A DNA stretch of 64,000 nucleotides, from contig NZ_AP022601.1 in NCBI RefSeq assembly GCF_010726765.1, positions 248,001 to 312,000 of the forward strand, given 5' to 3'. Source of the stretch: Mycobacterium gallinarum (lineage in GTDB: Bacteria > Actinomycetota > Actinomycetes > Mycobacteriales > Mycobacteriaceae). Positions within the stretch are counted from its first letter, which is position 1, and every line of letters begins with the position of its first letter. The notes under the pieces are model-generated. The model was not told the DNA's origin. It did no database searches and saw only the letters and a list, made by a program, of their open reading frames with translations. A program made the position numbers and the translations under genes. Below, one piece after another: positions 24,092 to 41,798 of the stretch.

Positions 24092-25255
24092 TCACTCGAA
24101 GGCGATGACGCCGCGGATGTTCTTGCCGGCACGCAGATCCCGCATCGCCTCGTTGATGTCGTCGAGCTTGTACTTCTGGGTGACCAATTCGTCGAGTTTC
24201 AGGGTGCCCGCTTCGTACATCGACAGCAGCCTGGGCATCGCTTCGCGCGGATTCATCTCGCCATACAGCACGCCCTTCAGCGTCTTACAGGACGAGACCA
24301 TGTCGGGCAGGATGAGCGGGACCATCATGTCGGTGATCTTCGCCATGCCCGTCAGCACACAGGTTCCGCCCTTGCGCAGCATCATCATCGCGACCATCAC
24401 CATGTCCGGCGGCACCACGCCGGGGGTCAGCACCACCCGGTCCGCCATGACGCCCCACGTCATCTCCTTCACCAATTCCACTGCGGCCCCGGCGTCTGCC
24501 GCCGTATGGGTCGCGCCGAAAATCGGGGCGATCTCACGTTTGAACTCGTTCGGATCGACCGCGACGATGTGCTTCGCACCCGCGGCCTTGGCGCCCTGCA
24601 CCGCATTCATCCCGATGCCGCCGACACCGATGACCACGACGGTATCACCGACCTGCGTGCCTGCGGCCACCGATCCCGACCCGAAACCCGTTGTCACACC
24701 GCAGGATACGAGCGAAGCCGCCTCTAACGGAATCCAGTCGTTGATCCTCACCAAGGAGCGCTCGGAGGCGACGACGTACTCGGAGAACGTGCCGACCTGC
24801 ATCATCGCCATCAGGTCCTCGTCGCCGAGATGTCGCCGCCGGGTACCGTCGGTGGTCATGGCCTTGTCGTAGATGTCGGCGCCGACGTCGCACAGGTAGG
24901 TCTGTCCCGTCACACAGAATCGACAGCTGCCGCACGCGGGGAAGAACGAGATCGCCACGTGGTCACCGGGCTTGAGCGTCTTCACCCCCGGACCGACGTC
25001 GGCGACGACGCCGGATCCTTCGTGGCCACCGAGCATAGGGAACCATTCCGGCACGTTCACGCCGGCGGCCCGCATCATCTCTTCCATCTCGGCACTCGGC
25101 ACGCTGTCGCCGGTGTAGAAGTGCTCGTCGGAATGGCAGACGCCCGCGTAGGCCATCTTGACGAGTACCTCACCGGCCTTGGGCGGGTCGAGCTCCACCT
25201 CGGTCACTTCCCAGTCCACGCCGACTCCGCGCAGGACCGCTGCTTTGGATTTCAT
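24092..25255 (-). CDS. NDMA-dependent (mycofactocin-type) zinc alcohol dehydrogenase
   Basis: A 387-aa MDR protein. The catalytic Zn site is GVCHSDEHF with GGHEGSG, and the structural Zn site is CGSCRFCVTGQTYLC. The long acidic/Met insert EDLMAMMQVGTFSEY and the segment VVLTPGVVPPDMVMVAMMMLRKGG match the NDMA-dependent, mycofactocin-associated family. Such enzymes hold NAD tightly and pass electrons to mycofactocin; that is family knowledge. It is the last gene of the SDR-ALDH-ADH operon and likely oxidises a primary or cyclic alcohol. Confidence 0.88.
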   Translation of the reverse strand: MKSKAAVLRGVGVDWEVTEVELDPPKAGEVLVKMAYAGVCHSDEHFYTGDSVPSAEMEEMMRAAGVNVPEWFPMLGGHEGSGVVADVGPGVKTLKPGDHVAISFFPACGSCRFCVTGQTYLCDVGADIYDKAMTTDGTRRRHLGDEDLMAMMQVGTFSEYVVASERSLVRINDWIPLEAASLVSCGVTTGFGSGSVAAGTQVGDTVVVIGVGGIGMNAVQGAKAAGAKHIVAVDPNEFKREIAPIFGATHTAADAGAAVELVKEMTWGVMADRVVLTPGVVPPDMVMVAMMMLRKGGTCVLTGMAKITDMMVPLILPDMVSSCKTLKGVLYGEMNPREAMPRLLSMYEAGTLKLDELVTQKYKLDDINEAMRDLRAGKNIRGVIAFE

Positions 25256-25280
25256 GTGCGTGCTCCTTCTTCGGCGGCGG

Positions 25281-26750
25281 TCAGGAAGCCGGCCAGCCGA
25301 CAGTCTTGGTCTCGGTGAAGATTTCGAGGCCCTCGATGCCGCACTGTCTGCCGATGCCCGACTGCTTGTAGCCGCCGAACGGGGCGTCGGCGCCGTACCA
25401 GAGTCCGCCGTTGATCCCGAGCGTGCCGGTCCTGATCCGGCTCGCGACAGACTTGGCCCGTTCGAGATCGCTGGCGAAGACGACCCCGGACAACCCGTAG
25501 ATGGAATCGTTGGCGATGCGCACCGCTTCGTCGTCGCCGTCGAAACCGATGACCGACAGAACGGGCCCGAAGATCTCCTCCTGGGCGATGGTCATACGGT
25601 TGTCGACGTTCGCGAACACCGTCGGCTCGACGAAGAACCCCTTGCTCAGGTGTTTGGGGATGTTGCCGCCGGTGACCAAACGGGCTCCTTCGGCCTTTCC
25701 CCTCTCGATATAGCCCATCACGCGGTCCTGCTGGCGCTTGGACACTTGCGGGCCCTGGAGCACCGAGGGATCCGTCGGATCGCCGTACTTGTTCTTCTCC
25801 ATCGCGACCTTCACGATTTCGACGGCCTCGTCATACCGCGAGTTCGGCACGAGCAGCCGGGTCGGCATGGCACAACCTTGTCCCGCGTGCATCGAGATGA
25901 ACGCGCTGCCACCGATGGACGCACTGATGTCGCCCTCGTCGTCGAGCACCAGGTAGACCGACTTGCCGCCGAGTTCCAGGAACGTTGGCTTCACCGTGGC
26001 AGACGCTGCCTGCATGACGCGGCGTCCGGTCTCCGTCGATCCGGTGAACGCGACCATGTCGACGAGCGGTGAGGTCGAGAGCACCTCGCCGACAAGGTGA
26101 TCCGACGACGTCACGATGTTGATGACGCCGGGCGGAATGTCCGTCTGCTCGGCAATGATGCGGCCGATTCGCGTGGCGTTCCATGGGGTATCCGGCGCCG
26201 GTTTGAGCACCATCGTGTTGCCCATGGCCAGGATCGGCCCGATCTTGTTCAGGATGATCTCGAACGGAAAATTCCATGGTGCGATGACGCCGACCACACC
26301 GATGGGTTCTTTCCACACCTCACGTGCGGCGGGCATACCCATGCCGAAGGCGTCCTTGTCGGGTAGCGAACGCTTCCAAGGGAACTGACCGATCATCTCG
26401 GCCGGCCAGCCCAGCGCCTCCTTGAGCGGCACGTCGAGCTGCGGACCGAACGTGCTCAGCAGCGGACAGCCGACCTCGGCGATCAGTTCACCGCGAAGCT
26501 CCTCCTTCTCGGCCTCGAGGGCCGCCTGCAGCTGGCGAAGGCCGACCGCCCTGGCCTCTCCGTCGCGTGACCAGCCGGAGTTGTCGAAGGCGTGCCGCGC
26601 AGCAACCACCGCACGTTCCATGTCCGCGCGAGTGCCGTCCGCTGCACCGCCGAGCACTTCCTCGGTCGCCGGGTTGATGTTGTCGAACTGGCGACCGGTT
26701 TCGGATTCGACGAGCTTGCCGTCGATGAGCATGCGGGATTCGTGTGGCAC
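25281..26750 (-). CDS. Aldehyde dehydrogenase
   Basis: A 489-aa ALDH. The cofactor loop is GVIAPWNFPFEI, the catalytic Glu lies in LELGGKSVYLVL, and the catalytic Cys in AGQGCAMPTRL. The C-terminus carries NGGLWYGADAPFGGYKQSGIGRQCG. GTG 26750 is chosen over ATG 26792, because it has GAAAGG upstream and lies 14 bp after the SDR stop, whereas 26792 is inside the SDR gene. It should oxidise the aldehyde made by the downstream ADH to an acid. Confidence 0.9.
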   Translation of the reverse strand: MPHESRMLIDGKLVESETGRQFDNINPATEEVLGGAADGTRADMERAVVAARHAFDNSGWSRDGEARAVGLRQLQAALEAEKEELRGELIAEVGCPLLSTFGPQLDVPLKEALGWPAEMIGQFPWKRSLPDKDAFGMGMPAAREVWKEPIGVVGVIAPWNFPFEIILNKIGPILAMGNTMVLKPAPDTPWNATRIGRIIAEQTDIPPGVINIVTSSDHLVGEVLSTSPLVDMVAFTGSTETGRRVMQAASATVKPTFLELGGKSVYLVLDDEGDISASIGGSAFISMHAGQGCAMPTRLLVPNSRYDEAVEIVKVAMEKNKYGDPTDPSVLQGPQVSKRQQDRVMGYIERGKAEGARLVTGGNIPKHLSKGFFVEPTVFANVDNRMTIAQEEIFGPVLSVIGFDGDDEAVRIANDSIYGLSGVVFASDLERAKSVASRIRTGTLGINGGLWYGADAPFGGYKQSGIGRQCGIEGLEIFTETKTVGWPAS

Positions 26751-26763
26751 TGTCAGTTGCCTT

Positions 26764-27552
26764 TCACCATTGTCGAAGTTCGGCCACGGCACCGGACGGC
26801 CGGGGAGCCAGGGTCAGATACGGGATGAAGCTGCTGTTGCCGCAACGAAGTACGGAGTGCACGACGCCGACGAGGTGGTCGGCATCGACGAGCCCACCTT
26901 GCATGTACCCGTTGTCCATCCAGTAGTGGATCGCGTCTTCCATCGCCTTCGGATCCCAGGTCTTGTTGAACTCGGTCTGCGAGTCGCCTTCACCACCGAA
27001 GCAATCGCCGACCGCCAAGCGGGTGAAGCCGATGTTGGGATGTTCGACGCGCCACGCCTCGACGAGCTTGTCCAGCGCTGCCTTTGACACGGCGTAGGCG
27101 CCGAGCAACGGCCATGGCGACGAGTAGGAGGCGCTCAATGAGGACAGGTACACCGCCGACCCCGCGGCAGCTGCCAGGTGAGGTGCGGCGGCGGAGGTGA
27201 TGAGGGATGCGCCGGTCACGTTGGTGGCGAACAAGTTCGCCCACTGCTCCTCGTTGACATTCGCCAGCGGTGAGAGCAGGCCGACGCCGGTCGTGTACAC
27301 CAGCGCGTCGAGGCCTCCGAAGGTCTCGACGACCTCGGCGATCGCATTCCGGCAGGCGGCAGCGTCGGTGACGTCGCATGCCACAGCGAGCGCGCCGTCG
27401 CCCGCTTCTTTCGCTGCGTTCTCCAGCCGGTCACGTCGGCGGGCCAGGAAGGCGACGCGTACGCCCTTGCCGGCGAGGCCGATGCCGATGCACCGGCCCA
27501 ACCCCGCAGATGCACCGACGACGGCAACTCTCAGCGGTGGTGCGTCAGACAT
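26764..27552 (-). CDS. SDR-family oxidoreductase
   Basis: A 262-aa SDR with GASAGLG, the Ser segment YLSSLSAS and YAVSK. NNAG is replaced by TTGVG, and the region after YxxxK (WRVEHPNIGFTRLAVGDCFGGEG) is shared with the SDR at 38203-38964, marking a subfamily. SD AAGGAG precedes the ATG. It heads the SDR-ALDH-ADH operon and lies next to, but is separately transcribed from, the TetR gene at 27671. Confidence 0.85.
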   Translation of the reverse strand: MSDAPPLRVAVVGASAGLGRCIGIGLAGKGVRVAFLARRRDRLENAAKEAGDGALAVACDVTDAAACRNAIAEVVETFGGLDALVYTTGVGLLSPLANVNEEQWANLFATNVTGASLITSAAAPHLAAAAGSAVYLSSLSASYSSPWPLLGAYAVSKAALDKLVEAWRVEHPNIGFTRLAVGDCFGGEGDSQTEFNKTWDPKAMEDAIHYWMDNGYMQGGLVDADHLVGVVHSVLRCGNSSFIPYLTLAPRPSGAVAELRQW

Positions 27553-27670: not shown

Positions 27671-28303
27671 CTATCGTCGCAGGACTTTTCGCGGCTCTAC
27701 CGCGAAGCTGAGCAGTAAACGGTCGAGGACCCTGGCGGCCCTCTCCCGCGCCTTGGTGGGCTTGTCGGCGTGCGCGACGAGGAGGGCGGCCTCCTCGACG
27801 GCCGCCACCAGGAGGTGGGTCAGTTCGCCGACGGGGTGGTCGTCGATGATGCCCTCGGCGATGGCCTTGGCCACCATCTCGTTGATCAGGGCGATGCTGT
27901 TGCCTTCCTCGATGGCGCGCAGCGTCTGCCAGCCCAGCACCACGGGACCGTCGATCAGCATCACGCGCTGCACCTCGGGTTCCAGCGCGGACTCGAGGAA
28001 TCCGCGCATTCCGCTTGATAGGACTTCCCATGCGTCGGCGCCCTGCGGGGGTGAAGCCAGCGAGCGCAGTGTCAGATCGCGCTCGACCTCCTCGAACACC
28101 GCGCGGAACAGTTCTGCCTTGTCCTTGAAGTGGTGGTAGAACGCGCCTCGGGTGCCAACCCCCGACCGGGTGACAAGGTCGCCGATGCTCGTGTCGAAGT
28201 ATCCCTTCTCGACGAACAGCGCACGGCCGGCGTCGACGAGATCGCGCCGGGTTTGGTCTCCGCGAGCACGGCGCTCGATATCGGTGCCACCACGCTTGGC
28301 CAT
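27671..28303 (-). CDS. TetR-family regulator, probable master repressor of the 28-34 kb block
   Basis: A 210-aa TetR protein. The HTH is clear (RRDLVDAGRALFVEKGYFDTSIGDLVTRSGVGTRGAFYHHFKDKAELF), followed by a ligand domain. Its promoter has TACGAT (28315-28310) exactly 6 nt before the ATG, so the mRNA is probably leaderless, and a 23-bp palindrome (28316-28338) abuts that -10. Related sequences lie in the substrate-binding-protein and P450 promoters. Autorepression and control of those genes is therefore inferred. The ligand is unknown. Confidence 0.88.
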   Translation of the reverse strand: MAKRGGTDIERRARGDQTRRDLVDAGRALFVEKGYFDTSIGDLVTRSGVGTRGAFYHHFKDKAELFRAVFEEVERDLTLRSLASPPQGADAWEVLSSGMRGFLESALEPEVQRVMLIDGPVVLGWQTLRAIEEGNSIALINEMVAKAIAEGIIDDHPVGELTHLLVAAVEEAALLVAHADKPTKARERAARVLDRLLLSFAVEPRKVLRR

Positions 28304-28315: not shown

Positions 28316-28338
28316 GCAACATTCAGGATGAATGTTGC
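28316..28338. promoter_or_regulatory. TetR operator, copy 1 (autoregulatory)
   Basis: Perfect palindrome with 10-bp arms GCAACATTCA / TGAATGTTGC and a 3-bp centre. It occupies the spacer/-35 region of the TetR promoter directly upstream of the TACGAT -10. Its inner 21 bp (28317-28337) match the P450-promoter site at 31842-31862 at 17 of 21 positions. Confidence 0.75.
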
Positions 28339-28344
28339 AGGTCG

Positions 28345-29451
28345 TCAGCGCACGATCCCGATCACCGGCATGAGGCCGAGTTCATTGTGGGACTTGAACC
28401 CGGGCGGCGCGTCGCAGATGGAGGGAATCGCGTTCACCGGCTCCATTGCCGTCCACGCGTACCCGACGGCCCCCGGCTTGGCGGTGTCGCGAGCATGCTG
28501 GTTGCCGCGCAGGATCAATTCGGTGCCGGGGTCACCCTCGACCACTATCCGGTAGTGGTAATAGGGCTCCCAGTCAGGCTTGGGCTCGATCGCGTCGTGG
28601 TCGGTGAACGCGTACAGCTCGTGCAGGGTGATGAACGGCCTGCCGTCTACCCAAGCCGTCCAGAGGTGATGCTGGGACGCGACGGTCCCCGTCCTGATCA
28701 CACCCTTCAGGCCGGGCATGTCCATGTCGGCCGAGCCCTCGTACGGGATGTCACGGATGGCGAGGCCGAGTTCGACGTCCGTCGTGAACTTCTCGACGGT
28801 CTTGCCGAGACCTTCGACGACCATGGTCAGCGACTGCGCGAACAGCGACCATGCATCCGCGAACAGATTGCCCTTGGCGAACTCGTCTGGTGTCTTACCG
28901 AATCCCATCTCGTCGAGGTATTTCAAGGTGTCCTTGCTGAAATTCACCGCTTCGTAGATGTGGATGTGGTCGGTCTTGCCGACGATGCGGGCCAGCGTGA
29001 GCACCAGCAGGTCCGCGGCGTAGCCGGGATGGATGCCGCCGCCGTGGAAAGACGTCCCGCCCGCCTGGCACGCGGCTTCGATCTTGTCGATGTCCGCGCC
29101 GTTGGTTTCGGTTCTGTGCCACCAGGCGCCGCCGGATGCGACGACGCTTTTGCCGCCGCGCAGCAGCCGGCAGACCTCGTCGACGTCCGACCACAGCGGT
29201 GCGTAGAAGACGCAATCGGCGTCGAGCGCCTCGAGCGCGTCCTTGTCCGTTGTCGCGAGCACGCCGATGGGCCCGACACCGACCAGTTCACCCGCGTCCT
29301 TGCCGACCTTCTCCGGTCGATTGCAGAGCACGCCGACGATCTCGAAGGTCGGATTATTAGCCATATGGCGCAGTGCGAGCGTGCCCACATTGCCCATACC
29401 CCACTGGATGACGCGGTACCTCGTGGCGGTGGTGGTCGTGTCGGCAGCCAT
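28345..29451 (-). CDS. DapB-like NAD(P)-binding oxidoreductase (paralogue 1)
   Basis: A 368-aa protein of the family annotated as dihydrodipicolinate-reductase-like or NAD(P)H-dependent amine dehydrogenase-like. It starts with a Rossmann strand (YRVIQWGMGNVGTLALRHM), followed by LVGVGPIGVLATTD and FYAPLWSDVDEVCRLLRGGKSVVAS. The central GGGIHPGYAADLL and the C-terminal VNAIPSICDAPPGF are hallmarks shared by all five paralogues here. The reaction is not established. ATG 29451 is 7 nt after a TAGCCT -10. The nearest genes are the divergent substrate-binding protein and the TetR. Confidence 0.8.
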   Translation of the reverse strand: MAADTTTTATRYRVIQWGMGNVGTLALRHMANNPTFEIVGVLCNRPEKVGKDAGELVGVGPIGVLATTDKDALEALDADCVFYAPLWSDVDEVCRLLRGGKSVVASGGAWWHRTETNGADIDKIEAACQAGGTSFHGGGIHPGYAADLLVLTLARIVGKTDHIHIYEAVNFSKDTLKYLDEMGFGKTPDEFAKGNLFADAWSLFAQSLTMVVEGLGKTVEKFTTDVELGLAIRDIPYEGSADMDMPGLKGVIRTGTVASQHHLWTAWVDGRPFITLHELYAFTDHDAIEPKPDWEPYYHYRIVVEGDPGTELILRGNQHARDTAKPGAVGYAWTAMEPVNAIPSICDAPPGFKSHNELGLMPVIGIVR

Positions 29452-29524
29452 GGCCGCGAGGCTACCAACGGCTGGCAATCGGCATATGCGAATTCGTAAA
29501 CGCTGATTTCCGGCTCCCATTCGA

Positions 29525-29545
29525 CAACCTGCATGTTGTATGTTG
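29525..29545. promoter_or_regulatory. TetR operator, copy 2, with leaderless promoter
   Basis: This 21-bp site begins CAACCTGCATG and ends TATGTTG. It agrees with the site at 31842-31862 at 18 of 21 positions. The TATGTT inside it (29539-29544) is the -10, exactly 6 nt before the ATG at 29551, so a bound repressor would cover the -10 of a leaderless gene. Confidence 0.72.
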
Positions 29546-29550
29546 CCGGT

Positions 29551-30705
29551 ATGGGTGACCAAGAGGCTCGGGCATACGGATCGGTGGCACCGCTGAAAGT
29601 CGGCCTGCTCAACGACTATCCGACCAGGGCCGGAATCGACAACGACACCCTCGACAGCCTGCGGCTCGTCTTCGACGAGGCCGTCGCCGCCGGTCTCGTC
29701 GATCGGCCGATCGAGCTGATCGAACGCAACGTGATCGGTCTACCCAACGGCACCTACCAGGCCGTTGAGGACGGCTACGACGAGCTGGTCGCCGAGGGCT
29801 GCCTCGCCATCTTCGGGCCGTATGTCTCCGACAACGCCGTTCCGCTTGCCGCCCACGCCAACCGCGTTGCCAAGGTCCCCAACATCATCCTGTCGGGCTC
29901 GGAGGGCGCCTTGAGCGAATGGACATTCGCCCTGAACAACGGGTCGATGCCCGAGGAGCCCGTGATGCTCGCCGCAGTGATGCTCGGCGACGGCCGATCC
30001 CGAATCGCGATCGCGTACGAAGCGTCGCTCATCGGCAAGGAGTACCTCGCCTTCGCTGAAAAGGCATACTCGGCAGCGGGTTTGAAGGTCGTCACCACGG
30101 TCGCGATCCCGCAGGTCGAGGCCGATAAGGCCGAGGCGGTCAAAGAGTTGCGCGCCGCGGAGCCGGACGCTCTCGTGCACGTCGGGTTCGGCCATGGACT
30201 GTGGGGATTCTCGGATGCGCTTCTGGCGGCCGACTGGGATCCGCCTCGCTACACGACCACCGCGTTCGAGATGGCGCACATCAACGCGGAGTGGATGCAC
30301 CATCTGCGCGGGTGGATCGGACTCGACAGCTACGACGAGCGCAACGAGGTCGGGCAGGCGTTCCTCGATCGATTTGAAGCCCGTTACGGCCGTCGACCGG
30401 GGCAGTCGATGCCGGGTCTCTGCTACGACGTGGGGACGGTCATTGTGCGCGGGCTGGCGGCGGCGCGACCGTTGACCGGCGAAGGGGTCAAAGGCGGTAT
30501 CGAACAGGTGAAGCTCGTGCCGTCGGCCAGTGGCGCACCCGGCACCTTCCTGCGCTTCGGCCGCTTCATCCGGCAGGGTTGGCTCGGGTCTGACTACCTG
30601 ATCGCACGACGGATCCTGCCGGACGGCAGCGCACACGTGTTCCACTCGGCACCCAGCGACCACATCGCACGCGCGGTGGGCCTACCCGTTTTTGGTTCCG
30701 CCTAG
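29551..30705 (+). CDS. Type I periplasmic-binding-fold protein without signal peptide
   Basis: A 384-aa protein of the branched-chain amino-acid/amide substrate-binding family (Peripla_BP_6 type): VGLLNDYP, a lobe with IFGPYVSDNAVPLAAHANRVAKVP, then SRIAIAYEASLIGKEYLAFAEKAY. The N-terminus MGDQEARAYGSVAPLKVG has no signal peptide and no lipobox, and no transporter genes are nearby, so it is predicted cytosolic. It may sense or sequester a pathway ligand. ATG 29551 fits a leaderless promoter. Its last 24 bp overlap the end of a convergent DapB-like gene. Confidence 0.8.
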   Translation: MGDQEARAYGSVAPLKVGLLNDYPTRAGIDNDTLDSLRLVFDEAVAAGLVDRPIELIERNVIGLPNGTYQAVEDGYDELVAEGCLAIFGPYVSDNAVPLAAHANRVAKVPNIILSGSEGALSEWTFALNNGSMPEEPVMLAAVMLGDGRSRIAIAYEASLIGKEYLAFAEKAYSAAGLKVVTTVAIPQVEADKAEAVKELRAAEPDALVHVGFGHGLWGFSDALLAADWDPPRYTTTAFEMAHINAEWMHHLRGWIGLDSYDERNEVGQAFLDRFEARYGRRPGQSMPGLCYDVGTVIVRGLAAARPLTGEGVKGGIEQVKLVPSASGAPGTFLRFGRFIRQGWLGSDYLIARRILPDGSAHVFHSAPSDHIARAVGLPVFGSA

Positions 30706-31770
30706 CTGGATCGCACCGAACACCGGCGCCGTCACGACACCCGGCGGTGACGCGAGTACGTCGGGAATCGCTCGCAACGCGCCCATCGCGATCATGAGAT
30801 GGCCGGGCTGGGCATGCGTGCCATCTGCCGGCTTGTCGTCGAACCCGACGTCGAGCTGTAGTTCGAAACTCGGCTCGCCTTTGATGACGGCGCGGATCAG
30901 CGGCGCTTTCTGGCCCGGCGCCAGGGGTTTCAGCCCCCACTGCGGGAGGTCACGCGTCAGCACCCATTCCTCGTGGATCGCGAGCAGTGGCCGACCCGAC
31001 CAGTGGCCGACCCATGAGAACCGTTGTCCGACCACCGTTCCCGCCTCGATCGTGCCCGCCCGCACCTCGATGTCGCGGGGAAGCGTCGTGGCGTCCACGG
31101 ACACGTCGACGTGTGACAGCGTGATACCCAGAACATCCGCAGTGGCATTGAGCGCCTGCCGGTAGGCGAGGTCGAGCTTTTTGATGATCGGGGAGTCGGC
31201 GGAGACGTCTTCGGGTGGGCGGCCCATTCCCATGAGGTCGACGAGCATGGGCCTGCTGTCGACCGCCGACACATCGGTGGCCTCGTAGAGGTCGATGCGG
31301 TCGATCGTCTTGCTCAGCGCCGTCACCGTTGCCACCAGGCGTTCGAACATGAAGCCGGGATTCTCGCCCGCCGCATGGAAGCGTGAGCCGCCTGCGCGGC
31401 ACGCTTCGACGAAGGCGGTCTCGGTTTCGGCGCCGTAGGTGGGCAGGTGGTTGTACGAGGTGGTGGTGATGACGCTGATGCCTGCCCGAAGAAGCCGGCA
31501 GATGTCCTCGGCGTTGGTCTCGACGGCGTGCGCCTTACTCGCCGCGTGGATGACCACGTCGGGTCGCAGCGCGAAGATGTCCTCCTTGTCCGAGGTGGCC
31601 AGCACGCCGGTGGTAGGCGGCAGACCGCACAAGGCCCCGGCATCCTGCCCGGCCTTGGATGGGTCATACACCAGGACTCCCACCAGCTGATAATCAGGAT
31701 TCTCAATCAGTTCGGCCAGCGCGGCGCGTCCGACGGCGCCTGTCGCCCACTGAGCCACTCGAGTTGCCAA
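30682..31770 (-). CDS. DapB-like NAD(P)-binding oxidoreductase (paralogue 2)
   Basis: A 362-aa family member: RVAQWATGAVGRAALAELIENPDYQLVGVLVYDPSKAGQDAG at the start, GENPGFMFERLVATVTAL in the middle and MGALRAIPDVLASPPGVV at the end. It starts at TTG 31770 with AGGAG seven bases upstream; no ATG in frame fits. The promoter region is shared with the divergent P450 gene, which has tandem TetR-type operators. The reaction is unknown. Confidence 0.8.
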   Translation of the reverse strand: MATRVAQWATGAVGRAALAELIENPDYQLVGVLVYDPSKAGQDAGALCGLPPTTGVLATSDKEDIFALRPDVVIHAASKAHAVETNAEDICRLLRAGISVITTTSYNHLPTYGAETETAFVEACRAGGSRFHAAGENPGFMFERLVATVTALSKTIDRIDLYEATDVSAVDSRPMLVDLMGMGRPPEDVSADSPIIKKLDLAYRQALNATADVLGITLSHVDVSVDATTLPRDIEVRAGTIEAGTVVGQRFSWVGHWSGRPLLAIHEEWVLTRDLPQWGLKPLAPGQKAPLIRAVIKGEPSFELQLDVGFDDKPADGTHAQPGHLMIAMGALRAIPDVLASPPGVVTAPVFGAIQLGGTKNG

Positions 31771-31820
31771 TGGAACGCTCCTGGTTGCAGTTTCGCGATT
31801 GCCACGGTTGCATGTTTGAT

Positions 31821-31862
31821 CAACCTACATGATGTAGGTTTCAACCATCAGGTTGTATGTTG
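31821..31862. promoter_or_regulatory. TetR operators, copies 3 and 4 in tandem
   Basis: Two 21-bp elements lie back to back, 31821-31841 and 31842-31862, exactly two helical turns apart. The first contains the perfect palindrome AACCTACAT-G-ATGTAGGTT (31822-31840). The second contains CAACC-atca-GGTTG and the TATGTT -10 (31856-31861) of the P450 gene. They lie in the divergent P450/DapB-like promoter. Confidence 0.75.
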
Positions 31863-31893
31863 TCTGGGCGGATATATCTGGGAGGAGCCGCGC

Positions 31894-33141
31894 ATGGCCG
31901 AGCCGGCGACCAGGACAAGCCAGGAAGAACTCGAACAAAGCATCCGCGACGCGCAGAACAAATTCAATGAGGGCATGGGCGCCGACGGCGACGCGTCGCC
32001 TTATCCGATGCTCAAGGAGCTACGCGCGCAAAGCCCGGTGCACGCCGGCTGGCCCGAGATGGGAATGGTCGGCAACCCGGGTGATGGCCCGCAGACGTTC
32101 ACGGCGTACACCTTCGACACCGTCAAGGCGATCTTCACCGACAACATCACGTTCAGTACTCGCTGTTATGAGGACATCGTGCGGCCGCTCCAGGGGCCGA
32201 CAATCCTGGAGATGCAGGAACCCGAACACGCGATCTATCGCAAGTTGCACGAGTTCGCGTTCGCCCGGTCTTCTATGAAGCGATGGGACGCAGAACTCGT
32301 CGGACCGTTGGTGGACCGGACCATCGCAAAGTTCAAGGACGCCAAGCGCGCCGACCTCGTCGATGCGGTGTTCATGCCGATTCCGGTGCGGGTGATCGCC
32401 GCTCTGCTGGGGCTTCCGGACTCCGACGTGCTTCAGTTCCATCGGCTTGCCATCGACTTGCTGGGCTTTCGTGGGGACATGGACTGCGCGATGCGTGCGT
32501 CGGCGGAGATGAAGGAGTACTTCGTCGGGATCCTCGCCGATCGACGCAGGGAACCCCAGGACGACATGGTGTCGATCCTGGCCGCCTCCGAAGTCAACGG
32601 GGTGAAGATGACGGACGAGCAGATCTACGGCTTCATGCGCAACCTGTTACCCGCGGGTGCAGAGACGACGTCGCGTTCGACGGCCAGTTTGGCCATGGGG
32701 CTGCTGACCCACCCTGACCAGCTCGACGCGGTACGCGCGGACCGCAGCCTGTTACCGCAGGCGATCGAGGAAGGTATCCGATGGGAGACTCCGCTGCTGA
32801 ATTTCATGCGTGAGGTCACCTGTGACACCGAGGTGGGCGGAGTGCAGATCCCCAGGGGTGCGACGATGATGCTCAGCCTGGGCAGTGCCAACCACGACGA
32901 GACCCGCTGGGACGATCCGGAGAGGTTCGACATCTTCCGGGAACGTAAGCCGCACATCGGTTTTGCCCACGGTGCTCACGTGTGCCTGGGGATGCACCTG
33001 GCACGGCTGGAAACCTCGAAGATCTTCAACGCGCTGTTGGACGAACTGCCTGGATTGCGTCTCGACCCTGACGCACCGCCGCCGTACATCACCGGGACGA
33101 TGTTCCGCTCCCCGCCGCGCCTCGACGTGGTGTGGGACTGA
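31894..33141 (+). CDS. Cytochrome P450
   Basis: A 415-aa soluble bacterial P450. The I-helix has LLPAGAETTSRST, the K-helix EEGIRWE (ExxR), and the haem loop GFAHGAHVCLGMHLAR with the axial Cys. ATG 31894 follows GGAGGAG; the longer open frame upstream runs over the operator region. It is the first gene of a P450/DapB-like/esterase operon, so the three probably act on one substrate: hydroxylation, an NAD(P)-dependent step, and ester hydrolysis. Redox partners are not encoded nearby. Confidence 0.92.
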   Translation: MAEPATRTSQEELEQSIRDAQNKFNEGMGADGDASPYPMLKELRAQSPVHAGWPEMGMVGNPGDGPQTFTAYTFDTVKAIFTDNITFSTRCYEDIVRPLQGPTILEMQEPEHAIYRKLHEFAFARSSMKRWDAELVGPLVDRTIAKFKDAKRADLVDAVFMPIPVRVIAALLGLPDSDVLQFHRLAIDLLGFRGDMDCAMRASAEMKEYFVGILADRRREPQDDMVSILAASEVNGVKMTDEQIYGFMRNLLPAGAETTSRSTASLAMGLLTHPDQLDAVRADRSLLPQAIEEGIRWETPLLNFMREVTCDTEVGGVQIPRGATMMLSLGSANHDETRWDDPERFDIFRERKPHIGFAHGAHVCLGMHLARLETSKIFNALLDELPGLRLDPDAPPPYITGTMFRSPPRLDVVWD

Positions 33142-33154
33142 AGGGGGATTGCCC

Positions 33155-34204
33155 ATGACGCGGGTGATCCAGTGGGCGACGGGTATCACCGGGATGATGT
33201 CGCTGCGCCACGTGATCGGCAGGCCGGACCTCGATCTCGTCGCGGTGCGTGTCTACGACCCCGCCAAGGCAGGGGTCGACGCCGGCACGCTGTGCGGTCT
33301 CGATGAGGCCGGGGTCCTCACGTCCGATGACCGAGACGCCATCATCGCAGCCGATGCCGACATCGTCCTGTACATGGGCAAAGTGGAGACCGACACCGAA
33401 GGGTGCTTCGCCGACGTATGCGACCTGTTGGCGTCGGGCAAGAACGTGGTGGCGACCGGCAGCCGCTTCATTCATCCGCGCTCGTTGCACGAGTCACTCG
33501 CAGACGGGATCGAGAGTGCCTGTCGCATAGGTGGTTCCTCATTCTTGGGGCTCGGCTTGTATCCCGGCTTTTTCGGAGAATCGCTCGGCCCATTGCTATC
33601 CCGCCTCACTCAGCGGACAACGCACATCGGCGTGCGTGAGGTGCTCAACTACTCCACGTATGGCAGTCATGATCTGATCTTCAATGCGATGGGTTTCGGC
33701 CACCTGCCGGAGGACACGACTCCGTTGCTCAGCAATACCGATTACGCGGCCAGCGCGTGGATCGGCAGCGCCACGGTTCTCGCGCAGTCGTTGGGGCTGC
33801 AGATCCTGTCTGTCGAGGGGTTCCGCGAGGTCGCGACGACCCCGCGGACGTTGACGGTCGCAGCGGGTGAGATTCCCGCGGGGACCGTCGGCGCCATGCG
33901 ATTCGGCGTGACCGTCGATTGTGGTGAGACGAGGATGTCCGTTGAACATCTCACCCGCATGGCGGACGACCTGGCTCCCGACTGGCCCATCGAGATCGGT
34001 TACGAGGTCACGTTCGAGGGGGAGCCCAACATGCGGCTGCACCTCGTGATCGGTTCGCACGACGAGGATCACGCAGAGCAGGGCTGCCTGGCCACCGCGA
34101 TGCATGCGATCAACGCGATACCGTCGGTGATCGCTGCGCAGCCAGGGCTCTACGACCTCTCGACGATTGCGCCTTTCGTGGCGCACTGGACCAACCGCGC
34201 ATGA
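33155..34204 (+). CDS. DapB-like NAD(P)-binding oxidoreductase (paralogue 3)
   Basis: A 349-aa family member beginning MTRVIQWATGITGMMSLRHVIGRPDLDLVAVRVYDPAKAG, with GLGLYPGFFGESLGPLLSRL in the middle and MHAINAIPSVIAAQPGLYD near the end. ATG 33155 follows the P450 stop by 13 bp, and the stop overlaps the esterase start in ATGA. This tight link to a P450 is the best functional clue for the family: it may reduce or oxidise a P450 product. Confidence 0.82.
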   Translation: MTRVIQWATGITGMMSLRHVIGRPDLDLVAVRVYDPAKAGVDAGTLCGLDEAGVLTSDDRDAIIAADADIVLYMGKVETDTEGCFADVCDLLASGKNVVATGSRFIHPRSLHESLADGIESACRIGGSSFLGLGLYPGFFGESLGPLLSRLTQRTTHIGVREVLNYSTYGSHDLIFNAMGFGHLPEDTTPLLSNTDYAASAWIGSATVLAQSLGLQILSVEGFREVATTPRTLTVAAGEIPAGTVGAMRFGVTVDCGETRMSVEHLTRMADDLAPDWPIEIGYEVTFEGEPNMRLHLVIGSHDEDHAEQGCLATAMHAINAIPSVIAAQPGLYDLSTIAPFVAHWTNRA

Positions 34205-35391
34205 CTAGCCAGACCGGAGACTCCCGCGGGCGTCGGCCGAGAAGGGCCAAGCCGGGCGACTACCTCGTGGCGCTCAGCGCCGCCACGGCATCCGTGCCCG
34301 TCATCGGAAGGCATCTCGAACTGATCGGTGGATTCGCGGCGCTCGGCGTCGGCGGCCGACACTACCTGCCGGGCATTTTGACCGGGATCGCGCAGCCGCG
34401 TCTGAGTCCCCGCGCCGCGAAACGGCGTCGGGAGCAGCGTGCGTCGACACCGAGCGTCTTGAGCGAAGCGTTGTACGGCATCGTTGATCCAGCGGATCTG
34501 GATCAACCATGGCCATCGCACCCGAATGTCGCGCCTCTCTGGAAGGCGCGGGGGCAACGACGGTACGTGCACAGGTCGTCGGTCTGCTACGGCGACCACC
34601 CGCGCCAGCTGCTCGACGTATGGCGACTCGATGATTTACCGCGAGAGCCCGCCCCCGTCTTGATCTTCATTCCCGGTGGCGCTTGGGTTTTCGGACGTCG
34701 CGAGTTGCAGGGCCATGCGTTGATGGCTCATATGGCGCGGCGTGGGTGGGTGTGTTTATCCGTCGAGTACCGGACGAGTCCACACCACCGTTGGCCGCGC
34801 CAGATGCAAGATGTGACTGCAGCTGTCGCATGGGCAAGGGCGAATGCCGACCAGTTCGGCGGTGATCCCGACTTCCTTGCGGTAGCAGGGACTTCGGCCG
34901 GTGGTCACTTGGCGAGCCTGGTGGGATTGGCTTCCGACGCCGAGACTTCCGTCGACGCCGTGGTCAGCATCTATGGCCTCTACGACTGGCAGGACAGGTC
35001 CACCAGGGAACGCGATCACTTCATGCGGTTCCTCGAGCGGATCGTGGTCAAGCGGTCGCAGGCCCGACACCCCGAGGTCTTTCTCGCGGCCTCTCCGATC
35101 GACCAGACTCATGCATTGGCACCGCCGTTCCTGGTGGTCCATGGCAGCGCGGACGCGCTCATTCCCGTGGCGGAGGCACGTTCTTTCGTCGCGCGACTGC
35201 GAGCGGTATCGCGTGCAAAAGTCGGTTACATCGAGCTTCCAGGCCTCGGACACGGTTTCGACTTGATTGACGCGACCCACACTGCGCCCGTAATCGCCGC
35301 GATTGGCCGCTTCCTCACCCAGATCCACCGCGATCATGCCGCGGCACGGGTCGGTCGTCGGCGGCCGCGTCAGTTACCGAAACCGGTGTAG
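34201..35391 (+). CDS. Alpha/beta hydrolase, carboxylesterase type
   Basis: A 396-aa hydrolase. The oxyanion segment FIPGGAWVFG stands in for HGGG, the nucleophile elbow is GTSAGGHLAS, the acid is in HGSADALIP, and the catalytic His in GLGHGF. A 110-residue N-terminal extension resembles mycobacterial Lip-type esterases (BD-FAE/HSL-like). It starts in an ATGA overlap with the DapB-like gene and ends 22 bp inside a convergent DapB-like gene. An ester or lactone substrate from the same pathway is likely. Confidence 0.85.
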   Translation: MTSQTGDSRGRRPRRAKPGDYLVALSAATASVPVIGRHLELIGGFAALGVGGRHYLPGILTGIAQPRLSPRAAKRRREQRASTPSVLSEALYGIVDPADLDQPWPSHPNVAPLWKARGQRRYVHRSSVCYGDHPRQLLDVWRLDDLPREPAPVLIFIPGGAWVFGRRELQGHALMAHMARRGWVCLSVEYRTSPHHRWPRQMQDVTAAVAWARANADQFGGDPDFLAVAGTSAGGHLASLVGLASDAETSVDAVVSIYGLYDWQDRSTRERDHFMRFLERIVVKRSQARHPEVFLAASPIDQTHALAPPFLVVHGSADALIPVAEARSFVARLRAVSRAKVGYIELPGLGHGFDLIDATHTAPVIAAIGRFLTQIHRDHAAARVGRRRPRQLPKPV

Positions 35392-36446
35392 CTGCGGATC
35401 AAGGGCAAATCGGCCATGGTCGCGAAGCCCGCCGGCGCATCGCACACGGCCGGTATCGCGTTGACGACTTGCATGGCGACGGTGATCAGGCCTGCCTTCA
35501 CGTGCTCTTCGATCGAGGCCTCACGCGAGAAGCTGGCCAGCGGGAAGAAATGTGTGCGCATCGACGGATCGCCCTCGATGGTCAACGTCCAACCGTCAAG
35601 CGGTTTGGGCCAGTGCTCGGGATACTCGCCGCCGACCGTCCATAGTGTTTCGAATTCGATCAGCGTCTCGCCGTCGCGATGGCCACGGAAGTTCCACCGC
35701 TGCCCGGCGGTGGTGCCCGCCTTGACCACCTGACCGAACATCTCGAAGTCCTTGGTCGCAGACACCGCTTCGAGACTCACCGAAACGTCGTCGATGCCCG
35801 CGTTCAAGGTGTCGGAGATGAACCAGGTCTGCTCGACGAAGAGCTTCGTCAGAAAGCCGAGGTAATCGTTGGCCGTCGGTGTGACGTCTTCCGGCGGACG
35901 ACCGAACCACATTCCGTCGAAGGTGATCTCGGTGCTCTCCCACAGCGTCCAGTCGGCGCGCTCTTGCAAGGTGATCTGATTGATGGTGCGGCTCATCCCC
36001 GAGAGTGCCAGGGGCAGCACGCCGGAGAGGTTACCGGGGTTGAGGCCGCTGCCGTGGATGGTGGCGTTGCCCTTGTCACACGCCTCCTGCAGGCGTTGCC
36101 GATCCCCCTCGGGAATGCGCCGTGGGTGGAACAGAAACGACGGCGTCGCCACATTCTTTCCGCTCGCGAGGAGTGCGCAGACGTCGTCGAGGTCGGTGAA
36201 CGACGGCGCGTAGAGAACGAGATCGGCGTCGAGCGCGAGGATGTCCGCAGTGTCGGTCGTCGCGGTGACACCGATCGGATCGCGGCCGACGATCGTGCCA
36301 ATGTCGACCCCGTTCTTTGTATCGGAGTAGACGCGCGCACCGACCAGCTCGATGTCGGGCCGGTGGTCGAGGATTGCCGTCACCATCTCGGTGCCCACCC
36401 CGCCGGTGGCCCACTGGATGACTCGTATCGGTCGCGTGCTTGTCAA
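35370..36446 (-). CDS. DapB-like NAD(P)-binding oxidoreductase (paralogue 4)
   Basis: A 358-aa family member with PIRVIQWATGGVGTEMVTAILDHRPDIELVGARVYSDTKNGVDIG, GSGLNPGNLSGVLPLALSGM and VNAIPAVCDAPAGF. TTG 36446 with GGGAGC upstream is preferred; the longer ATG frame (36512) crosses the divergent promoter. It is divergent from an SDR gene at 36537 and shares a region with GTTCTC repeats. The protein is close in layout to paralogue 1. Confidence 0.78.
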   Translation of the reverse strand: MTSTRPIRVIQWATGGVGTEMVTAILDHRPDIELVGARVYSDTKNGVDIGTIVGRDPIGVTATTDTADILALDADLVLYAPSFTDLDDVCALLASGKNVATPSFLFHPRRIPEGDRQRLQEACDKGNATIHGSGLNPGNLSGVLPLALSGMSRTINQITLQERADWTLWESTEITFDGMWFGRPPEDVTPTANDYLGFLTKLFVEQTWFISDTLNAGIDDVSVSLEAVSATKDFEMFGQVVKAGTTAGQRWNFRGHRDGETLIEFETLWTVGGEYPEHWPKPLDGWTLTIEGDPSMRTHFFPLASFSREASIEEHVKAGLITVAMQVVNAIPAVCDAPAGFATMADLPLIRSYTGFGN

Positions 36447-36504
36447 CGGACAGCTCCCTTCGACAGTGGCGCAGACTTCCACAGTATCGATGGTGATAAT
36501 GTTT

Positions 36505-36533
36505 GTTCTCACTATTCGTTAAGTGAGGTTCTC
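36505..36533. promoter_or_regulatory. GTTCTC direct repeats in a divergent promoter
   Basis: GTTCTC occurs at 36505-36510 and 36528-36533, 23 bp apart, with CACT/AGTG arms between them. The region separates the DapB-like gene (minus, 36446) from the SDR (plus, 36537). It belongs to the GAGAA/TTCTC motif group seen from here to 49.9 kb. Confidence 0.5.
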
Positions 36534-36536
36534 GAA

Positions 36537-37379
36537 ATGGAAGATGTGCTGGGGTACGAAGGCAAGTCGGTCGTTGTCACTGGCGCCGCATCAGGAATGG
36601 GCCAGGCGACCGCACAGATCCTCGTCGATCTCGGTGCCACCGTGACCGCGCTCGACATCAAGCCGACCACGGTTGCGGTGGACCGTGCATTGACGATCGA
36701 CCTACGCGATCGCGCGAACATCGAAGCGGTCGCCGCGTCGATCGACGGGCCGATCGACGGCTTGTTCAGCTGCGCAGGCCTTCCTGGTCCGCCGTTCAGC
36801 GAGTGGGACACCATTCTGGTGAACTTCGTCGGCGCACGGCATCTGGCCGAGCAACTGGTGCCGAAGATGGTCAACGGATCGTCGATCAGCGTGATCTCGT
36901 CCTCGGCGGCGCTCGGCTGGCAGGATCACATCAAGGTGATCACGGGACTTCTGGAGACAGACGGCTTCGATGCCGCGGTCGAATGGCTCACGGCCAACGA
37001 GAAGAGGTGGTCCTGGAGTGGCTACGCGTACTCCAAATACGTCATCGATGCGTGGGTCGGTTGGTGGTATCCAGAGCTAGGCCCCAGAGGCATCCGGATC
37101 AACTGCATCAACCCGGGTCCCACCGACACGGCGATGATGCCGGCGTTCCAGGATCTGATGGGCAAGGAGACGGTGGATCAGGCGATCGGGCCGGTCGGTC
37201 GCTACTCCACTGCGGAGGAGCAGGCTTGGCCACTGGTCTGTCTGGGCAGCCCGCGGTTCAGCTATGTCGGCGGTGAGGTCCTGTGGACCGACGGCGGCTG
37301 GAACGGTGCGATGACCATGGGCCGCCACGAAGCCCAGTGGGCGGATACCGCGGCAGGGGAGATGTCGAAGAACGGCTGA
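36537..37379 (+). CDS. SDR, 3-alpha-hydroxysteroid/coniferyl-alcohol dehydrogenase type
   Basis: A 280-aa SDR: GAASGMGQATAQIL, FSCAGLPGPPFSEWDTILVNFVGARHLAEQLVP, a Ser segment (VISSSAALGW) and YAYSK after an insert of about 30 residues (HIKVITGLLETDGFDAAVEWL). The insert and CAG in place of NNAG are typical of the 3-alpha-HSD/coniferyl-alcohol dehydrogenase subfamily. ATG 36537 is chosen; the much longer open frame is antisense shadow of the DapB-like gene. The substrate is probably a cyclic alcohol. Confidence 0.85.
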   Translation: MEDVLGYEGKSVVVTGAASGMGQATAQILVDLGATVTALDIKPTTVAVDRALTIDLRDRANIEAVAASIDGPIDGLFSCAGLPGPPFSEWDTILVNFVGARHLAEQLVPKMVNGSSISVISSSAALGWQDHIKVITGLLETDGFDAAVEWLTANEKRWSWSGYAYSKYVIDAWVGWWYPELGPRGIRINCINPGPTDTAMMPAFQDLMGKETVDQAIGPVGRYSTAEEQAWPLVCLGSPRFSYVGGEVLWTDGGWNGAMTMGRHEAQWADTAAGEMSKNG

Positions 37380-37386
37380 GCCGTTC

Positions 37387-38190
37387 TCAGATGAAGTCCG
37401 ACCCCCCGTCGACGTTCATGGTGGCGCCGGTGACGTAGCCGTTACGTCGCGACGCGAGATATGCCGTTGCGGAGGCGATCTCCTCGGGCAGGCCGGCACG
37501 GCCGATGTCGCAGGGATGCCCGTAAGTCTGCTCTACCCACTTCATCACGTCGTGAGGATCGGAGGAGTCAAGGCCGTCCTCAGCCAGAATGTCCTTGAGG
37601 ACCTCGGTGAAGCTGGCCGTAACTATCGTCCCTGGGCACACGCAGTTGACAAGGATTCCCTCGGGTCCAAGGCTTTTGGACAGATTCTTGGTGAAGCTCG
37701 ACAGTGCGGCCTTCGATGCGGTGTAGGCCACCAGGCGTGCGCTTTGACGCTGGATCGAGTGCGCGGAAAGTGTGACGATGCGGGCCCATTCGGCGGCGCG
37801 GAGCATGGGCAGCGCTGCACGCACAGAACGGACTGCGGACATCGTGCCCAGATCGAACGCGGCGTGCCAGTCGTCGTCGTCGAGTTCTTCGAACGCGCCC
37901 GCGCTGGGGCCGACGGTGTGCACAAGCACGTTGAGCCTGCCCCAGGCGTCGCTCACCGCCGCGTACCCCGCCACGATCGATTCGGCATCCGCCATGTCGA
38001 CGGTGATCGGCAGTACCTCGGGAGCCCCCGCGCTTCGAACGCGATCGGCCGCTGCTTCGAGCGCTTTTCGTCCACGCGCCATGATCGCCACCGAGGCGCC
38101 CTCGGCACCAAGGGTTTCTGCGATCGCAAGACCCATGCCCTTGCTGCCTCCGGTGACGACAGCGGTGGCACCCGCGAAGCCCAGATCCAT
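37387..38190 (-). CDS. SDR-family oxidoreductase
   Basis: A 267-aa classical SDR with GGSKGMGLAIAETL, the Ser segment VTLSAHS and YTASK, ending YVTGATMNVDGGSDF. NNAG is replaced by VGPSAG. It is transcribed against the SDR at 36537 and lies 12 bp downstream of the SDR at 38203 in the same operon (ABM-like relic, Bfd, SDR, SDR). Confidence 0.87.
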   Translation of the reverse strand: MDLGFAGATAVVTGGSKGMGLAIAETLGAEGASVAIMARGRKALEAAADRVRSAGAPEVLPITVDMADAESIVAGYAAVSDAWGRLNVLVHTVGPSAGAFEELDDDDWHAAFDLGTMSAVRSVRAALPMLRAAEWARIVTLSAHSIQRQSARLVAYTASKAALSSFTKNLSKSLGPEGILVNCVCPGTIVTASFTEVLKDILAEDGLDSSDPHDVMKWVEQTYGHPCDIGRAGLPEEIASATAYLASRRNGYVTGATMNVDGGSDFI

Positions 38191-38202
38191 TGTGTTTCCT
38201 CC

Positions 38203-38964
38203 TCAGGTCTTCTTTGTACGGGCCCGCGGCGCGAGGTGCACGATATCGCTCACGACGGTCGGATTGGCCCGCGCGACGGCAATGAAGGACAGCAGGGCAT
38301 TCGCGACATCGTCGACCGCGGACATCTCGGCTGGGATCTGACCCTCGTGCGCCCATGTCCGGTACAGGTCCGCCAGCAGATCGCGGTCAGCACCGCGCAG
38401 GATCTCGGTACCCTCTGTCGGGCCGACGCTCACCCGAATTACTGGCAGTTCCGGATGCTCGGCACGCCATGACCTCAGGATCTCGTCGAGAGCGGCCTTG
38501 CTCGCGTGATAGGCGGCGACGCCGGCGCGCGGCCGGCCGACGTCGTGGCTCGATGCGATGAGCGCGACTGCGTTGTCTGCGAGGTGTGGCACGGCTGCGC
38601 GCAACAGGTGGGAGGCGCCCACAGCGTTGACGGCATAGGTGTGCATCCAGGTGGTGACGTCGGTGTCCTCGATCAACGCGAATGGCGCAGAGGCGCTGGT
38701 GAACACGACCGCGTCGAGACCGCCGAGGCGCGCCGCGACCTCGCCGACGACGCGTTCGATGGCCTGCGGATCGGACACGTCGAGCTCGTGTGCTGAGCCG
38801 TCGAGCTGTTCGGCCAGCGTGGTCAGGATGTTCACCCGCCGCGCCGCAAGGGCGACTTTCACCCCCCGAGCATGGGCGGCCAGCGCCAGGGCTTGTCCGA
38901 TCCCGGACGATGCGCCGACGATGAGCATCCGTATTCCCGCGATGTCGGAGTGCGGATCTGTCAT
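38203..38964 (-). CDS. SDR-family oxidoreductase
   Basis: A 253-aa SDR: GASSGIGQALALAAHARGVKVALAARR, the Ser segment IASSHDVG and YHASK, then SWRAEHPELPVIRVSVGPTEGTE, the same subfamily feature as the 26764-27552 protein. ATG 38964 overlaps the Bfd stop in ATGA, so translation is coupled to a ferredoxin gene. The [2Fe-2S] protein may pass electrons elsewhere in the pathway rather than to the SDR. Confidence 0.85.
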   Translation of the reverse strand: MTDPHSDIAGIRMLIVGASSGIGQALALAAHARGVKVALAARRVNILTTLAEQLDGSAHELDVSDPQAIERVVGEVAARLGGLDAVVFTSASAPFALIEDTDVTTWMHTYAVNAVGASHLLRAAVPHLADNAVALIASSHDVGRPRAGVAAYHASKAALDEILRSWRAEHPELPVIRVSVGPTEGTEILRGADRDLLADLYRTWAHEGQIPAEMSAVDDVANALLSFIAVARANPTVVSDIVHLAPRARTKKT

Positions 38965-39637: not shown

Positions 39638-39673
39638 CCGTGCCGGCTCGACGATCGATTCGTAAATGAAAGT

Positions 39674-39796: not shown

Positions 39797-39804
39797 GACC
39801 GACG

Positions 39805-39832: not shown

Positions 39833-39846
39833 TAGTGGAGGTGGAC

Positions 39847-40721: not shown

Positions 40722-41795
40722 GTGACATACAGGGTGAAGGTTGATCCGTCCGACTCCAGCGCAGATCCAGGGCCCCTGGTGAAGGACACCCACTCACCGT
40801 GGCCGGCGCGGATCGGGTGGGGACTGTTCGGCGTCGCTTACCTTGCCTTCGCTGTGGTGACGGTCGCGACCATCCAGTCCGGTCTGCACGGCGACCCCGA
40901 GCGGACCAACCCCAACCCGGGGCCAGCGCCATATCCGCCGTTCCTCGGCTTCGACAACTGGCCTATCGCGGTCGCCATCAGCTCGATACCCATGGCAATC
41001 GGGCTGATCGCAGCACTGAGCTGGCTGTCCTGGCGTCAGCGCAAAATCCACTGGGCGGTCATCATCGCTTTCGCCGGGCTCATCACGGGCGCGCTGGACC
41101 CGCTCGCTAACTGGGCGACTTTCGCGATCTTCGATCCGCGCATGCTGCACTTCCCCCTCTCGTGGCCATACGTCAACATTTCGCCGAACCTCGAGCCTGC
41201 GCTGGCGTTCCTCGGGGGATATGCCGCCTATTACCTTCTCAACGGGCTGGGCTTTCTGCAATTGCACGACCGCCTCGTCGACCCACTTTTGCGGCGCTCG
41301 AGTTGGTTCGTCCGTCACCGGCTGGTCGCGGTCTTCATCGGTGCGACCATCGTCGCGATCCCGATCAACGGCCTCATCCAGTTCGCGTGGATGCGGGCGG
41401 GCATATTTTTCTACACCGAGGCCGTCGGTCCGGTTCTGCAGATCGGTCACATCCATTTTCCGGTGATCATGGCGGTCTACGACTCCATCATCTTCGGGAT
41501 GGTCGCCGTGATGTGCGTCCGAGACGAGAACGGTGATCTGGTGCTCATCAACCGGATTGCCCGGTGGCTTCCCGCGCGGGCCGGCCGGCCGAAGGTGACG
41601 CTGACCCGCCAGCTGCTCATATCGGTCGCCGTGGGTCTGGTGTCGTTCGCGACGCCACTTGCGGTGTTGGCCGGCCTGCGTGAAGCCGGCCTGTCGCGCC
41701 CCGCCTACGACCAGAACCCGTATCCGAACGTGAAGGTATACGACCCCTACGGTCATCTCGAAGAAGCAGGCAAGCCGGGGCCCTTCTTCAGGTAG
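40722..41795 (+). CDS. AveC-like (spirocyclase family) membrane protein
   Basis: A 357-aa integral membrane protein with about seven hydrophobic helices. Conserved-looking loops include DPLANWATFAIFDPRMLHFPLSWPYVNISPNLEP, QFAWMRAGIFFYTEAVG and a polar C-terminus with AYDQNPYPNVKVYDPYGH. The family is named after AveC of avermectin biosynthesis, which forms a spiroketal; mycobacterial members have no known function. TATTCT (40710-40715) lies exactly 6 nt before GTG 40722, so the mRNA is probably leaderless. It heads a run of membrane-protein genes to 43445. Confidence 0.72.
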   Translation: MTYRVKVDPSDSSADPGPLVKDTHSPWPARIGWGLFGVAYLAFAVVTVATIQSGLHGDPERTNPNPGPAPYPPFLGFDNWPIAVAISSIPMAIGLIAALSWLSWRQRKIHWAVIIAFAGLITGALDPLANWATFAIFDPRMLHFPLSWPYVNISPNLEPALAFLGGYAAYYLLNGLGFLQLHDRLVDPLLRRSSWFVRHRLVAVFIGATIVAIPINGLIQFAWMRAGIFFYTEAVGPVLQIGHIHFPVIMAVYDSIIFGMVAVMCVRDENGDLVLINRIARWLPARAGRPKVTLTRQLLISVAVGLVSFATPLAVLAGLREAGLSRPAYDQNPYPNVKVYDPYGHLEEAGKPGPFFR

Positions 41796-41798
41796 GAG

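Follow-up and report, generated by a model that had tools for sequence, protein, structure and literature searches.

The window analyzed here is a 64,000-nucleotide stretch of the Mycobacterium gallinarum genome (contig NZ_AP022601.1, positions 248,001 to 312,000), and all positions below count from its first letter. It encodes a TetR-family regulator (hereafter TetR), several DapB-like oxidoreductases, a substrate-binding protein (SBP) and a cytochrome P450, and among these genes lie four copies of a 21-bp inverted repeat, the putative operators O1 to O4 (Table 1). A preliminary description of this DNA had proposed one TetR, one operator and a local regulon for a pathway whose substrate it left unnamed, and our comparative genomic analysis (58 loci, 118 genomes) supports that proposal.

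Table 1. Genes and putative operator sites of the TetR locus (positions in the window).
Feature	Position	Strand	Basis and remarks
TetR-family regulator, putative repressor (TetR_N + TetR_C_41)	27671..28303	minus	Pfam; nearest solved chains Rv0078/EthR2; predicted leaderless, predicted autoregulated
Operator O1 (TetR side)	28316..28338, 21-bp site from 28317	none	perfect 10-3-10 palindrome; adjoins TetR -10 TACGAT
DapB1, DapB/2,4-diaminopentanoate-dehydrogenase-like oxidoreductase	28345..29451	minus	family profile matches, ortholog comparison
Operator O2 (SBP side)	29525..29545	none	right arm holds predicted SBP -10 TATGTT (29539-29544)
SBP, Peripla_BP_6 fold	29551..30705	plus	Pfam, structure model; without evident signal peptide, predicted leaderless start
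DapB2, DapB-like oxidoreductase, divergent from P450	30682..31770	minus	Pfam, ortholog comparison
Operator O3 (DapB2 side)	31821..31841	none	19-bp perfect core 31822-31840
Operator O4 (P450 side)	31842..31862	none	TATGTT at 31856-31861 within right arm
Cytochrome P450	31894..33141	plus	Pfam, family profile matches
DapB3, DapB-like oxidoreductase	33155..34204	plus	13 bp past P450; putative shared operon
LipQ-like esterase (below LipQ cut-off)	34201..35391	plus	4-bp overlap with DapB3; putative operon member
Candidate site O5	40723..40743	none	2 mismatches; overlaps GTG start (40722) of distantly AveC-like open reading frame

The 21-bp consensus of the sites is CAACMTNCA-N3-TGNAKGTTG. The coordinates assigned to the four sites in the preliminary description are exact, as is the 21-bp offset between the last two, and its estimate of about 16–18 identical positions out of 21 for the closest pairs agrees with our counts in the same orientation (18 for O2/O4, 17 each for O1/O4 and O2/O3, and 16 for O1/O2; the remaining two pairs have 15/21 each). 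The 23-bp palindrome that it placed beside the TetR -10 is indeed perfect and adjoins TACGAT (28315–28310, minus strand), which is followed after 6 nt by the ATG at 28303, and the two TATGTT boxes said to overlap sites lie in the right arms of O2 and O4. In the leader of the P450 gene, GGGAGGAG resembles a Shine-Dalgarno sequence.

The whole genome (6.3 Mb, two contigs, rated 100% complete) was scanned with a core pattern of 15 fixed positions, CAACNTNCA-N3-TGNANGTTG. With at most one mismatch it matched four places, which are O1 to O4, and the reversed pattern used as a control matched none; the equally good chance matches elsewhere that the preliminary description had named beforehand as telling against a regulon were found nowhere in the genome at this threshold. 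Allowing two mismatches gave five matches, every one in the window, versus six for the reversed control, and a lone two-mismatch match carries little weight because of this ratio. Within the window, the related pattern CAACMTNCANNNTGNAKGTTG had six matches at up to three mismatches, including one that overlaps the SBP site, compared with a mean of 0.29 after shuffling.

The comparison with other genomes was based on the best 80 of 127 loci, among which 58 clear orthologs were tallied (L006–L063, TetR 58–93% identical). A Streptomonospora locus (L064, TetR 44% identical) and 21 distant TetR matches were left out of the tally, and in the former no site was seen when up to two mismatches were allowed. 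At the same threshold, a site was found no more than 60 bp upstream of TetR in 58/58 loci and at the SBP start in 58/58 loci, one site often being counted for both genes where DapB1 is lacking. In 14 of the 58 loci DapB1 separates TetR from SBP, and all 14 keep a site on either side of it; a fifteenth locus (L059) has a DapB1-like gene elsewhere. The gap between DapB2 and P450 could be assessed in 55 loci and holds two sites in 47 of them, with a spacing of 22 bp (40 loci), 21 bp (6) or 23 bp (1). Altogether, 935 kb of loci contain 169 sites at no more than one mismatch versus no match to the reversed pattern.

When the 58 TetR-side sites were aligned, the information content was 1.2–2.0 bits in the arm columns, compared with 0.09, 0.17 and 0.48 at the three central positions and 0.0–0.8 in the 25 columns on the left; these sites had been chosen by the pattern, which favors the fixed columns, and none of the 58 loci was dropped. 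An invariant TANNAT begins one base past the TetR-side site, 6–7 nt before the TetR start, in the 58 loci, while the SBP -10 (TATGTT in most aligned loci) falls within the right arm, with its end about 6–7 nt before the start codon. Because the -10 elements end at such a short distance from the start, both genes look leaderless, with predicted starts at 28303 and 29551. Leaderless transcripts are common in mycobacteria, as PMC3898074 states in outline.

The distribution of the sites follows that of the regulator. In a sample of 118 genomes of the genus, with TetR counted as present at 60% identity or more and sites at no more than one mismatch, each of the 25 genomes with TetR has two to four sites. 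Among the 93 genomes without it, 85 have none and eight have one or two (10 in all), and the reversed control gave three matches, in two genomes, over the entire sample. One site of genome G036 and one of G068, among the places listed for TetR-bearing genomes, are off the contig of the TetR. Outside the genus, a perfect CAACMTNCANNNTGNAKGTTG occurs in 0/136 genomes of the order, and two of the 14 genus genomes in the same draw have one.

The best independent support for the predicted regulon is provided by two genomes whose sites were unused in defining the pattern. In these more distant relatives the same operator precedes a gene for an alcohol dehydrogenase (ADH) of the N,N-dimethyl-4-nitrosoaniline (NDMA)-dependent type or for a short-chain dehydrogenase/reductase (SDR). 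The perfect sites of genome G043 (TetR 60% identical) are found at TetR/SBP, in the gap that separates divergent DapB3- and DapB2-like genes, and ahead of the SDR gene, where the site overlaps the 3′ end of a ChsH2-like open reading frame (ORF). The same contig encodes a P450, an AveC_like-family ORF, a CbbQ/NorQ-type ATPase, a von Willebrand factor type A (VWA) protein, two acyl-CoA dehydrogenases, a thiolase-like ORF and an MlaE/YrbE-type permease. In G045 (TetR 74% identical) the only other site at no more than one mismatch, a perfect one, is situated 48 bp upstream of the NDMA-dependent-type ADH gene; the protein matches TIGR03989 with 486.7 bits (cut-off 440) and is related to the one encoded at 24092–25255 of the window (485.1 bits). 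Neither DapB2 nor P450 turned up in the 19.5 kb retrieved from G045. The SBP frame of this genome is interrupted (L150, 8835–9942) with operator and TetR kept, and may be a pseudogene or reflect a sequencing error.

The N-terminal helix-turn-helix (HTH) domain of TetR matches PF00440 with 48.7 bits (cut-off 24), and the stretch GTRGAFYHH is identical across the 58 orthologs tallied. ScbR, BetI, MftR and similar NCBIfam names were rejected, all with scores far below the cut-offs. The closest described system is Rv0078/EthR2 of M. tuberculosis (PDB 5wm9, 6c31 and 5icj), also a TetR with a base-reading arginine in TRGA (PMC6016246). As far as PMC6016246 outlines it, the Rv0078 operator is 21 bp long, its two 10-bp inverted repeats covering the transcription starts, and two dimers bind there 7 bp apart; Arg48 reads a guanine, and the protein is proposed to repress itself and the divergent gene. 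In length and symmetry, the two features that the comparison covered, that operator agrees with the sites described here (PMC6016246). T51, R52 and Y56 of TetR correspond to T47, R48 and Y52 of Rv0078, so that three of the four DNA contacts compared match, and pocket residue E70 matches E74 as counted by hand on the TetR/Rv0078 alignment. Unlike Rv0078/EthR2, the system in the window has four sites at four promoters, other partner genes and an extra glycine in the HTH.

Filing TetR as EthR2 was rejected. A paralog in the same genome (L144) scores 162 bits against Rv0078, versus 116 bits for TetR, and because of this higher score TetR is probably not the Rv0078 ortholog. At L144, an ORF with an alpha/beta-hydrolase fold is divergently oriented at a distance of 58 bp, and Rv0077c, the divergent partner of Rv0078, is an alpha/beta-hydrolase as well; the upstream neighbor of TetR is DapB1 or SBP, not an Rv0077c-like partner. 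The L144 group is present in 22 of the 118 genomes and has a distinct conserved intergenic block with TATGAAAGT repeats (21 of 22 among the matches listed). In L144 and L155–L176 this block, ACTTACAAACACT..GTATGAAAGTTACGTGCAGNCTGTATGAAAGT, contains direct and inverted copies of one half-site and is strongly conserved.

From these data we infer, with high confidence, that TetR is an autoregulated, ligand-released repressor that would control a local regulon through the 21-bp operators. Repression is the most likely mode of action because the sites sit on or beside predicted -10 boxes. TetR would bind the operator at its four places and, once bound, block RNA polymerase at its own promoter, at that of SBP and at the divergent promoters of DapB2 and P450–DapB3, until a substrate or an intermediate of the P450/dehydrogenase pathway released it. 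By analogy with Rv0078, two TetR dimers may share each site. The paired sites between DapB2 and P450, spaced by 21–23 bp (about two helical turns), might be occupied cooperatively, and the complexes could stack on one face of the DNA.

Several observations weigh against this interpretation. The Rv0078 contact T37 is unmatched in TetR, where the aligned residue is I40, and the extra glycine lies in the very turn of the HTH (GVGTRGA). O4 is imperfect, with only 6/10 arm pairs, and 8/55 of the DapB2/P450 gaps have a single site at up to two mismatches, five of these eight with a three-mismatch partner. The SDR, aldehyde dehydrogenase (ALDH) and ADH genes that run downstream of TetR in the window (24092–27552) have no site at up to two mismatches. 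In addition, the genomes compared are relatives, which inflates the counts given above.

The operators could belong instead to another TetR, for example one encoded in the window (19538–20167 or 53018–53641) or a paralog elsewhere, and the adjacent TetR would then be a mere neighbor. The genome does have two further TetR_C_41 regulators, L144 being closer to Rv0078, and the eight genomes that hold matching sites without this TetR would fit such a view. However, at least two sites accompany this TetR in 25/25 genomes, most genomes without it (85/93) have none, and the L144 group has its own, different intergenic block. Furthermore, the two other TetR_C_41 proteins encoded in the genome lack the extra HTH glycine, which is common to the TetR relatives of 46–48% identity (G086 and G101). 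These two genomes have no site at up to one mismatch, but the regions upstream of their own TetR carry TGACGTCCAGTCTGAATGTCA and CAACATTCAAACTGAATGTCA, which keep a similar inner half-site and differ from the sites described here mainly in the outer bases. We consider assignment to another regulator very improbable.

Some TetR relatives are activators, and the location of the sites at promoters would also suit a TetR that activates, or both activates and represses, through them; a protein bound on or next to a predicted -10 box should nevertheless block the polymerase, and we regard activation as improbable. Finally, TAKGTT in the right arm already has the form of a TANNNT -10, so the repeats might be merely shared promoter sequence, or recent duplications, without any regulator. 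Yet conservation of the left arm CAAC equals that of the right arm and exceeds that of the spacer, and promoters alone would not concentrate the sites in genomes with this TetR, which leaves this explanation with next to no probability. Repression by the adjacent TetR is the preferred interpretation.

The most unusual feature of the locus is its conserved SBP partner without a signal peptide or ATP-binding cassette (ABC) genes in the scanned ORFs of the window. SBP matches PF13458 with 93.6 bits; the best of five AlphaFold models, based on 18 sequences, has a mean pLDDT (predicted local distance difference test) of 79.2 (55.8–66.9 for the others), and Foldseek matched it to the type-I periplasmic-binding-protein (PBP) fold. 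No signal peptide or lipobox is evident from the N-terminus and the ortholog starts, which were judged without a signal-peptide program. The N-terminus, MGDQEARAYGSVAPLKVG, is short and polar and runs directly into the first strand of the model (residues 15–21), and in 5/58 loci (L032, L045, L049, L056 and L063) a stop precedes the start by three codons. None of the 50 window ORFs scanned, a part of the total, encodes an ABC permease or ATPase; an APC-type amino-acid permease is encoded at 14394. The MlaE/YrbE-type permease on the G043 contig weighs against an SBP free of any transporter. SBP is probably cytosolic, not an exported transport component, and the database name “ABC transporter substrate-binding protein” probably misleads, because no signal peptide is evident and no ABC genes occur in the ORFs scanned. 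Such a cytosolic SBP would more likely buffer or present the ligand inside the cell than feed a transporter.

Two SBP paralogs (44–45% identical) with similar N-termini are encoded in another cluster of the same genome (L154, G000:C1:645500–665000), together with two DapB-like proteins, two P450s, SDR-like ORFs, an AveC_like protein, a VWA protein, an ALDH and a tandem TetR. Both lack a signal peptide. Ten ORFs of this cluster were scanned with Pfam, and none matched an ABC permease or ATPase.

AmiC, an amide receptor of Pseudomonas, works inside the cell and controls an antiterminator, whereas the partner of SBP is a TetR. AmiC (PDB 1pea) exemplifies the type-I PBP fold as a regulator, and SBP matches this superfamily (17% identity) rather than AmiC specifically. 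SBP might, by such a comparison, be a second ligand receptor that captures a hydrophobic or scarce inducer in the cell and hands it to TetR or withholds it. We regard this as unlikely; if true, it would be a two-receptor one-component switch, with AmiC-like logic on a TetR. In genomes without DapB1, TetR and SBP often share one operator.

Candidate site O5 was not accepted as a firm operator, since its two mismatches are at the level of the reversed control. A protein-motif search located the start of a second P450 in 14 loci, 12 of which keep CAGGGTGAAGGTTG there; it is changed in L032, and L026 is without a site. Conservation also extends to the GGG spacer of O5, although an operator would have no use for this. 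The ORF at 40722 starts with GTGACATACAGGGTGAAGGTTG, and in relatives its predicted leaderless promoter and first codons begin the second P450, P450-like sequence following that start in L006, L009, L013, L015, L023 and L033. In the window these first codons are joined to an AveC-like body that begins differently in relatives, and a deletion seems to have placed the AveC-like gene of the region 40722–41795 under a new promoter; the second P450 also appears shortened in L007 and L014. The ORF has no Pfam or NCBIfam match of its own, and AveC-like was not adopted as a firm name for it, resting as it does on 25% identity to the G043 ORF that matches PF17198.

DapB2 weakly resembles solved amine dehydrogenases and dihydrodipicolinate-reductase-like proteins. 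Five DapB/diaminopentanoate-dehydrogenase-like paralogs (at 28345, 30682, 33155, 35370 and 45199) lie within an 18-kb part of the window (28345–46278), and the surrounding genes encode an NDMA-dependent-type ADH, an ALDH, several SDRs, a sulfotransferase, further P450s, acyl-CoA dehydrogenases and thiolases. Judged from this gene content, the pathway looks like a P450/dehydrogenase breakdown of a lipid- or terpenoid-like compound. The titles and opening parts of abstracts returned by a literature search held nothing that we recognized as this regulon or cluster; the papers on Rv0078/EthR2 and others on leaderless transcripts were among those returned.

A motif set for mycobacterial TetRs (BMC Genomics 2015) describes, in outline, palindromes in the intergenic regions of divergent TetRs with small local regulons, listed by Rv gene (30 examined, 11 above the cut-off; PMC4482099). 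As this class is sketched there, the predicted regulon belongs to it (PMC4482099).

Overall, our analysis provides a testable regulon for a mycobacterial P450/dehydrogenase cluster, in which a reporter made from TetR and its promoter could reveal the inducer and, through it, the pathway. It also sets apart a clean class of operators within the EthR2-like TetR_C_41 group and points to recurring binding proteins without signal peptides in such clusters.

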